From positions 1 through 5,645 of the forward strand of contig JAPYWL010000067.1 of assembly GCA_028276365.1 (NCBI GenBank): a DNA stretch of 5,645 nt, given 5' to 3'. Both the position numbers and the translations under genes were made by a program. Positions 1-3,238 of this stretch are shown piece after piece. Every line of letters starts with the position of its first letter. Positions within the stretch are counted from its first letter, which is position 1. Below the pieces are notes generated by a model, which worked only from the letters and a program-made list of their open reading frames with translations, was not told the DNA's origin and searched no databases. The stretch comes from Deltaproteobacteria bacterium. GTDB lineage: Bacteria > DRYD01.

Positions 1-1127
1 GCTATTATTGTAGAATTAGAACCAATAAAAGAATTGGATTCTATAATAGTTTGGTATTTATTTACTCCATCATAATTAGCTAAAACAACACCAGCACCTA
101 CATTAACATTTTCTTTTATAATACAATTCCCTAAATATGCCAAATGACTACACTTTACACTAAAAGATATTTTGGTATTTTTTAGTTCAACAAATGCTCC
201 TATTTTATTACCTTCAATTATTTCATTATTTTCTCTTAAATTACTAAAAGGACCAATTTTATTGTTATTTACTATTACATTATTATTAATAAAAGAATTA
301 ACAATATTATTTTTATTTCCAATTCTTGAGTTCATAATAAAACAATTAGGACCTATTTTATTAAAATTACCCTCTATAACACTATTTATTATAAATACAT
401 TATCCAATACTAAATTTTCTTTATTTATATTACTTAATGGGCATATAAATATATTATTTCCTAATAAAACAACATCTTTATATATGTTTTTTACTATTTT
501 TTTAGATTCCTCAAAAATCAATTCAAAATCTTTTAAAGAATTTATCCTTAGAAAATAATTACTTACATCTTTATCATATGTAGTATAACTTTTAACATAA
601 TTTTCATTAAAACCTATACTATTGAGAAATTCCAATAATTCTTTTAAATTAAAAATCTTTTTAATTAAAATATTTCTTATTATTTCCCAACTTTCACTTT
701 TAAAAATAAATGAAAATTTATATAATTCCATTGAATTATTCAAGTATTTATCAGAGTAAGAAACTAGTTTTTTTTGATTATCTTTAATAAAATCTAAAAT
801 TATATCAGTATTATAGGAAATCAAAGGAGTATTAGCAGGTAAAACTATAAATGTAATTTCTTCTTTATTATCAATTAAATTTAGATCTTCATAGATTAAA
901 ATATTTATATTATCTAAAATCTTATCAAAATATTTTTGAACGTAACTTCTATTTAAATTAGATGTTATTAAATTAATTTCTATGGATATATTATTATTTT
1001 CTAAAATACTTTTTAGATTTATAAGCTTTAAAAGTAAAGGCTTTAAAAGTGGATAAATATAAAAATCATCGGTGTATTTAAAAAGCTCATCTTCTAAAGG
1101 TAAATAAATTTTAAAAAAATTTCTCAT
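1..1127 (-). CDS. glmU: GlmU-like protein: intact acetyltransferase domain, degenerate uridylyltransferase domain (C-terminus off window)
   Basis: GlmU normally acetylates glucosamine-1-phosphate (C-terminal left-handed beta-helix) and then transfers UMP (N-terminal Rossmann-like domain) to make UDP-GlcNAc for peptidoglycan and LPS in the cytoplasm. I translated 375 complete codons from ATG at 1125-1127. Residues about 225-375 are hexapeptide-repeat beta-helix with clear GlmU motifs: IGPFSNLREN, HLAYLGN, VNVGAG, NYDG, FIGS. By alignment from memory, R298, K316, H328, Y331, N342, N351, K357 and S370 match E. coli R333, K351, H363, Y366, N377, N386, K392 and S405 with no indel. The N-terminal ~200 residues align in outline, but LAAGxGTRM is replaced by LPLEDELFK, the QxxxLGTGHA motif is absent, and YGDVPL reads PANTPL, so the metal-binding Asp105 becomes Asn99. 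About 45 residues lie beyond the left edge. No in-frame alternative start exists before an upstream stop near 1170. No good Shine-Dalgarno is near the ATG; AAGGAAAG lies about 25 bases upstream. Confidence 0.9.
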   Translation of the reverse strand, partial: MRNFFKIYLPLEDELFKYTDDFYIYPLLKPLLLKLINLKSILENNNISIEINLITSNLNRSYVQKYFDKILDNINILIYEDLNLIDNKEEITFIVLPANTPLISYNTDIILDFIKDNQKKLVSYSDKYLNNSMELYKFSFIFKSESWEIIRNILIKKIFNLKELLEFLNSIGFNENYVKSYTTYDKDVSNYFLRINSLKDFELIFEESKKIVKNIYKDVVLLGNNIFICPLSNINKENLVLDNVFIINSVIEGNFNKIGPNCFIMNSRIGNKNNIVNSFINNNVIVNNNKIGPFSNLRENNEIIEGNKIGAFVELKNTKISFSVKCSHLAYLGNCIIKENVNVGAGVVLANYDGVNKYQTIIESNSFIGSNSTII

Positions 1128-2515: not shown

Positions 2516-3238
2516 TTATATTTTAATTAGGTTTGATCTAATAAGGATGATAATATAAAGCAAAATAATAAAAAACCATGTCCAAGGTTCAGTTTTAATT
2601 ATAGGTAAAATTCTAAATCTTCCATACTCATTTTCTAAAGGTTTAAAATTTATTAACCACTTAGGAACATTTTTTTTATATTCTATATATTTTTCCTTAA
2701 ATTTAGATTCTAAAAATTCTTCTTCAGCGGGTATAACAAAATAGTTATAATAAATTATATAATATAAGATAGTAAAGATAGTAGCTAATAAAGAAAGAAA
2801 TAATCCATAATTTCCAGTAGCTAAAATAGCAAATCCAGCAGCTATAGTGATATTAGCTATATAAACTGGATTTCTTGAAAATCTATAAGGTCCAGTAGTT
2901 ATTAAATTAGCAATAAGTGGTTCTTCTCCCCTACTCTTTACACCTAAATAACCTAAACATATAGACCTTAAAATAGCACCTAAAATAATGAATATAGATC
3001 CTATAATAACAGAAATAAAATTAGCTTTAGCTATTATTAAAAATACAATAACAAGAGGAATCGGAAACAAAGCTCTATACCTAAACCCCATCAAAGCTAT
3101 TATATTTTTGGGCTTATTCCCTACATTGGTATTTAAACTAAAATTATTATTAAGTTTATCATCATTAACTTCATTAATTTCAGTATTATCTTTAGTAATT
3201 TGATTACTTGTAATTTTATTATCAAATTCTTTATTCAT
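2516..3238 (-). CDS. Integral membrane methyltransferase, isoprenylcysteine carboxyl / phospholipid N-methyltransferase type
   Basis: The 240-residue protein carries the signature of the ICMT/PEMT membrane methyltransferases: TGPYRFSRNPVY (115-126), then EEEFLESKF (172-180), a spaced Tyr pair (Y184, Y187) and VPKW (191-194). These form the SAM-binding C-terminal part. Hydrophobic segments at about 57-70, 73-95, 127-145, 147-168 and 219-234 suggest four or five membrane spans. Residues 1-43 are a polar, Asn/Asp/Lys/Thr-rich tail that looks disordered and is not part of the family core. Bacterial members methylate varied lipid or small-molecule substrates, and the substrate here cannot be read from sequence. 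The ATG lies 3 bases after the stop of the upstream methyltransferase gene, and the GGGG of AAGGGGTAAGGG overlaps that stop, so translation is probably coupled. The next gene starts 10 bases after its end. Confidence 0.85.
   Translation of the reverse strand: MNKEFDNKITSNQITKDNTEINEVNDDKLNNNFSLNTNVGNKPKNIIALMGFRYRALFPIPLVIVFLIIAKANFISVIIGSIFIILGAILRSICLGYLGVKSRGEEPLIANLITTGPYRFSRNPVYIANITIAAGFAILATGNYGLFLSLLATIFTILYYIIYYNYFVIPAEEEFLESKFKEKYIEYKKNVPKWLINFKPLENEYGRFRILPIIKTEPWTWFFIILLYIIILIRSNLIKI

Follow-up and report, generated by a model that had tools for sequence, protein, structure and literature searches.

The glmU-like gene at one end of this contig from a Candidatus Calescibacteriota genome encodes a protein in which the acetyltransferase active site of GlmU is preserved and the uridylyltransferase active site is not. 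Judging from the sequences, we consider it quite probable that this GlmU orthologue is left with GlcN-1-P N-acetyltransferase activity only and that its N-terminal half is non-catalytic. In the scheme that we propose, the beta-helix half, presumably as a trimer, would use acetyl-CoA to acetylate GlcN-1-P, the product of GlmM. Descended from the uridylyltransferase domain, the N-terminal half would have lost canonical binding of UTP and GlcNAc-1-P together with the coordination of Mg2+, and would be retained as a non-catalytic domain that is partly reduced in a sister genus. A separate nucleotidyltransferase would then uridylylate GlcNAc-1-P, the most likely one being a COG1208-type protein of 338 residues encoded on contig C49 of the same genome; we put the chance of this last step at about even.

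The glmU-like gene and its surroundings

The window, meaning the whole stretch of DNA that was analyzed (5,645 nucleotides, 22 percent G+C), is contig C42 of the source genome (G000), an assembly of 1.59 Mb in 124 contigs with an estimated completeness of about 87 percent. The genome belongs to the little-known phylum Candidatus Calescibacteriota, and one of its nearest relatives, which are metagenome genomes, is labelled Candidatus Calescibacterium; hot springs are a known habitat of the lineage (PMC4791363). The glmU-like gene occupies positions 3-1127 of the minus strand, with its ATG at 1127, and runs open into the contig end after 375 of its 427 codons, a truncation that the earlier note missed. 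Positions 1-127 (no strand assigned) form an exact overlap of 127 bases with contig C35 of the same genome, which carries the final 52 codons, and joining the two contigs gives a complete GlmU-like protein of 427 residues. Downstream of glmU on C35 lie prs and then a gene for a RapZ/YvcJ-like P-loop protein, both names being read from the translations. Many bacterial glmU genes have prs downstream, and prs follows glmU here as well as in the related genomes G001 and G006.

Elsewhere in the window, positions 1306-2004 of the plus strand encode an HAD class IIIB acid phosphatase, for which the plant acid phosphatase model is best in NCBIfam, with vegetative storage protein behind it. On the minus strand, a frame of about 145 codons at positions 2110-2510 is seemingly frameshifted at an A run near 2440, leaving two overlapping frames, and appears to be a pseudogene or a sequencing error. 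Positions 2516-3238, also on the minus strand, encode a membrane methyltransferase whose top NCBIfam match, the Leptospira lipid A 1-phosphate methyltransferase LmtA, is far under its cut-off. Contigs C16 and C83 of the source genome (loci L018 and L019) carry near-identical regions in which a gene for a fused oxidoreductase-hexapeptide acetyltransferase of about 560 residues precedes an RtcB-like gene; the pair reflects either a strain mixture or a real duplication.

The acetyltransferase half retains its active site

The left-handed beta-helix acetyltransferase domain, delimited by its match to the NCBIfam glmU model (TIGR01173) and by hits to GlmU structures in the PDB, takes up residues 221-375 of the window protein (positions 3-467, minus strand). 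The TIGR01173 match itself is confined to residues 224-375 (E 4e-43), and its score of 147.9 bits, obtained with a protein truncated by the contig end, does not reach the curated bifunctional cut-off of 366.85 bits, which applies to a full-length match; unbroken relatives likewise stay below it. The best matches of the protein in family and PDB searches are all GlmU, and the beta-helix domain specific to GlmU is present together with its active-site residues. In a residue map based on an alignment of the protein to E. coli GlmU and sixteen further sequences, ten of ten acetyl positions tested in the window are identical to E. coli at a constant offset of 35. They fall in the stretch R298-S370 (positions 18-236, minus strand), where R333, K351, H363, Y366 and N377 of E. 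coli correspond to R298, K316, H328, Y331 and N342, and A380, N386, Y387, K392 and S405 to A345, N351, Y352, K357 and S370. On the neighboring contig C35, A423 is kept as A388 and R440 is replaced by N405, at a position that also varies among working GlmUs. The active site (R333, K351, H363, Y366, N377, N386, Y387, K392, S405 and A423) is kept in 6/6 genomes of the family, and the tail of the protein reads GNPAKF, as in other hexapeptide acetyltransferases.

The N-terminal half has lost the uridylyltransferase residues

Residues 1-220 (positions 468-1127, minus strand) make up a degenerate nucleotidyltransferase-like domain, described from the residue map and an AF2 model; it has no family match, and no nucleotidyltransferase model in NCBIfam and family searches matches its first 190 residues. 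G14, G16, R18, K25, Q76, G81-T82, G140, E154 and N169 (E. coli numbering) are all lost in the residue map. The uridylyltransferase active site (G-loop, R18, K25, Q76, G81-T82, D105) is absent, and the QxxxxGT motif and the sugar-binding residues are gone too. Within ANTPL (residues 98-102, positions 822-836, minus strand), the counterpart of GDVPL, the metal-binding Asp105 has become Asn99, and Asn stands at this position throughout the six genomes of the family. In the own genus N227 is paired with N196, in a stretch where the alignment is not reliable. Of the six, G000 and G001 (438 residues) come from the own genus and G002-G005 (334-360 residues) from a sister genus; in G006, from another family of the same order, glmU runs into a contig end and its N-terminal part was not recovered. 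These results agree with the earlier note both in its claim that the catalytic positions from R298 to S370 follow E. coli GlmU at identical spacing and in its claim that the N-terminal motifs and the metal-binding Asp are missing, the latter now seen in six genomes. Its main proposal, a protein that only acetylates, is likely right and finds good support in the sequences, for across the six genomes the acetyl-site residues are kept except at the variable R440 and the reliably placed uridylyl residues are lost.

Open frames and homologous N-domains are found in all six genomes, which were assembled separately, with 49 percent identity within the genus; in the sister genus, most of the domain's second half, the counterpart of the sugar-binding half of GlmU, is deleted. 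In the closest pair (G003/G005), dN/dS is about 0.25 for the N-domain vs 0.13 for the C-domain, and in the own genus 0.53 vs 0.18. Purifying selection on the N-domain is thus real, though weaker: relaxed, but not neutral. The segments of the former G-loop and metal loop are enriched in invariant N-domain residues (12/40 columns vs 2/89, Fisher p 1e-5); these segments were picked after seeing the data and are also core strands. The former G-loop segment, residues 1-35 (positions 1023-1127, minus strand), holds the invariant E14, K17, Y18, Y25, P26, P30, K34 and L35. The structural or regulatory role that had been suggested for this domain is in keeping with a dN/dS under 1 and with the invariant residues where the active site used to be, but the sister genus does without most of the second half.

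Origin and fold of the N-terminal domain

The N-domain likely descends from the uridylyltransferase domain, a reading drawn from the location of the domain, its co-linearity and a model of low confidence, since the profile match is not significant. Compared with canonical GlmU N-domains, the family profile reaches a probability of 2-5 percent, which is not significant, in a co-linear match that places ANTPL under GDVPL. Among profiles for canonical GlmU, COG1208, GlgC and an unrelated control, only canonical GlmU comes out slightly above the others, again not significantly, and with the shortened sister-genus set alone it does not. The AF2 model, built from family sequences only (mean pLDDT 66), has a nucleotidyltransferase-like alternation of strands and helices, with a predicted linker helix before the beta-helix (residues 198-215, positions 483-536, minus strand) at pLDDT under 50. 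GlmU structures align over the full length of the model (best Z 16.8) with an rmsd of 11, so that the relative placement of the domains is unreliable; against the modelled N-domain alone, in the same model of mean pLDDT 66, IspD (1vgw) aligns over 170 residues with an rmsd of 4.0 and Z 10.2. The model of the shortened sister-genus protein shows, at low confidence, an N-terminal beta-alpha-beta start, and its structural alignments fall mostly on the beta-helix. Of the homologue alignment and structure model that the earlier note had called for, the alignment bears out the residue losses, and the model shows a nucleotidyltransferase-like outline at low confidence.

A candidate for a proposed separate uridylyltransferase

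Because MurA, LpxA and LpxD, all users of UDP-GlcNAc, are found in the source genome, UDP-GlcNAc is needed. Family searches of G000 returned no canonical GlmU N-domain and no other GlmU C-domain, and a second canonical glmU was rejected for want of a match; the best score, 63 bits, belongs to the COG1208 protein. The same searches found no canonical GlmU N-domain above E 1e-22 in G001-G006. An enzyme of the UDPGP family (PF01704, the eukaryotic-type UDP-GlcNAc pyrophosphorylase) was likewise rejected as the partner in Calescibacteriota, with no match above cut-off in the seven genomes of the order. These absences rest on family searches in genomes of 71-90 percent completeness, which leaves room for an unseen enzyme.

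The sugar nucleotidyltransferases of the source genome comprise a GlgC-like protein, a ManC-like protein, two others side by side on contig C46 and the COG1208-type protein of C49. The COG1208-type protein occurs, whole or partial, in 7/7 genomes of the order with LAGGEGTRLRP or LAAGEGTRLRP intact, and the nucleotidyltransferase motifs of the C49 protein are likewise intact. Among solved structures it is closest to a UTP-glucose-1-phosphate uridylyltransferase (8x7s), it passes no curated cut-off, and neither glmS nor glmM adjoins the COG1208 genes in their neighborhoods. It is the only consistent candidate for GlcNAc-1-P uridylylation in Calescibacteriota, possibly with dual specificity. G001, G002, G003, G005 and G006 each encode a GlmM-like mutase and G004 part of one; no glmM orthologue was found in G000. 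Of the search proposed in the earlier note, then, neither a eukaryotic-type UDP-GlcNAc pyrophosphorylase nor a second glmU came to light, and a COG1208-type candidate did. Its idea of a separate uridylylating enzyme is favored by the need for UDP-GlcNAc and by analogy with the Oscillospiraceae and Gallimonas-type genomes described below; the one Calescibacteriota candidate is of uncertain specificity.

Similar proteins in other bacteria

GlmU acetyl halves without a working N-domain also occur in rumen Oscillospiraceae, in Gallimonas-type Clostridia, in G043/G188, in G076 (334 residues) and as beta-helix-only forms. In the protein of the rumen Oscillospiraceae (388 residues), LLDDTYRTG replaces LAAGxGTRM and the acetyl half is intact, with prs downstream in L098; such eroded forms were seen at loci L098-L101, L103-L113 and L115, and L179-L183 and L185 are listed with them. 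In six of the seven Oscillospiraceae genomes with an eroded GlmU, a GlmU N-domain with intact motifs is encoded as a protein of its own, in one case truncated at the end of a contig. The GlmU of Gallimonas-type Clostridia is short, about 325 residues, and its N-domain is reduced (L126, L142, L144, L147, L149); a UDPGP-family enzyme is present in 5/5 of their genomes. UDPGP enzymes, with far higher scores, are also present in 4/6 comparison genomes carrying canonical GlmU, and the presence of this family alone is therefore not specific. Two further loci, L165 and L166, are listed with the Gallimonas-type loci; L165, the one scanned, matches no NCBIfam model. The GlmU of G043/G188 (L051, L168; about 422 residues) has a degenerate N-domain, and in G043 its gene is flanked by an atpC-like and a glmS-like gene, the arrangement of E. 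coli. Neither a stand-alone GlmU N-domain nor a UDPGP enzyme was found, at the thresholds used, in G043/G188 and the beta-helix-only genomes tested.

In a tree of the C-domain, Calescibacteriota, Oscillospiraceae, Gallimonas-type Clostridia and G043/G188 each form a fully supported group, and none group together, which suggests that the uridylyltransferase half was lost separately in these lineages; the backbone is not fully resolved and several rows deviate in composition, so the number of events is not firm. Of 211 bacteria sampled, 90 have a GlmU that exceeds the bifunctional cut-off, and N-only or C-only hits turn up in many of the rest, so a split of the two GlmU functions seems to be common among bacteria.

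Discussion

Several other explanations of this protein were weighed against an acetyltransferase with a non-catalytic N-terminal half. An artefact such as a frameshift or chimera might be expected of a fragmented metagenome assembly in which glmU is split over two contigs, but the open frames and homologous N-domains shared by six separately assembled genomes exclude assembly error as the cause and make this account scarcely conceivable. That the acetyltransferase is instead fused to a domain of other origin, or to one that has been replaced outright, for example one binding a partner or ligand, is improbable: it would explain the lack of a significant profile match to any nucleotidyltransferase, but the N-domain stands in the same place, has about the canonical length in the own genus, aligns co-linearly if weakly, ANTPL against GDVPL included, and has an IspD-like fold predicted from family sequences alone.

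The enrichment of the two former loop segments in invariant residues, together with purifying selection on the domain, would also be expected if the N-domain still uridylylated through a site rebuilt from non-canonical conserved residues (E14, K17, Y18, N99, Y105). We regard this as very unlikely, for the sister genus lacks most of the half that bears the sugar site in GlmU, Arg18, Lys25 and Asp105 have no counterpart, and the clustering may just mirror core strands. Also very unlikely is an acetyltransferase for another amino sugar phosphate or a general hexapeptide acetyltransferase, which the GNPAKF tail and the loss of R440 might suggest, because the tested contact residues for GlcN-1-P and acetyl-CoA are all kept except R440, the best matches are GlmU throughout, prs adjoins the gene and the genome shows no other GlmU C-domain.

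With canonical bifunctional GlmU (E. coli b3730, TIGR01173) the Calescibacteriota protein shares domain order and the beta-helix acetyl half with its active-site residues, and it differs in an N-domain without the G-loop, R18, K25, D105 and the sugar-site residues (148 bits against a cut-off of 367). The eroded GlmU of the Oscillospiraceae (L098-L115) is similar in its intact acetyl half, its nucleotidyltransferase-like N-domain without the catalytic motif and, in L098, its downstream prs, but it belongs to a separate, well-supported clade, and its partner, a stand-alone intact GlmU N-domain, was not found in Calescibacteriota. In the Gallimonas-type protein, too, the acetyl half is intact and preceded by a reduced N-domain that is non-catalytic, but this protein falls in a separate clade and occurs in genomes with a UDPGP-family enzyme. 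Beta-helix-only GlmU (about 200 residues; L102, L135, L136, G088) has an acetyl half with the same active-site residues; its N-domain is wholly gone, whereas that of Calescibacteriota is kept in decayed form. The C49 protein falls in the same broad COG1208-like group as the archaeal-type sugar-1-phosphate nucleotidylyltransferase (TIGR03992, ST0452) but does not reach the curated cut-off, and its beta-helix is short.

Our search of the open-access literature, which leaves most subscription journals outside, found no description of a monofunctional, truncated or pseudoenzyme GlmU in such a state. We see the dead-half GlmU of Calescibacteriota as a variant within a known enzyme family and an instance of recurrent loss. 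More speculatively, and with considerably more doubt than confidence, the uridylyltransferase half may have decayed several times with different replacements, the dead domain staying in frame and under selection, and this domain may have taken on a new, conserved function where nucleotide was once bound; if so, it might, for instance, control the acetyltransferase or dock the separate uridylyltransferase. GlmU is a drug target and often serves to illustrate how two enzymatic steps can be fused in one protein. If one half can be dead yet present, as it seems to be in these lineages, the fusion would not be essential, and the lineages would offer natural comparisons for roles of the N-domain beyond catalysis. 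For such genes the annotation as bifunctional GlmU would be wrong, and the route by which Calescibacteriota arrive at UDP-GlcNAc is now a testable question.
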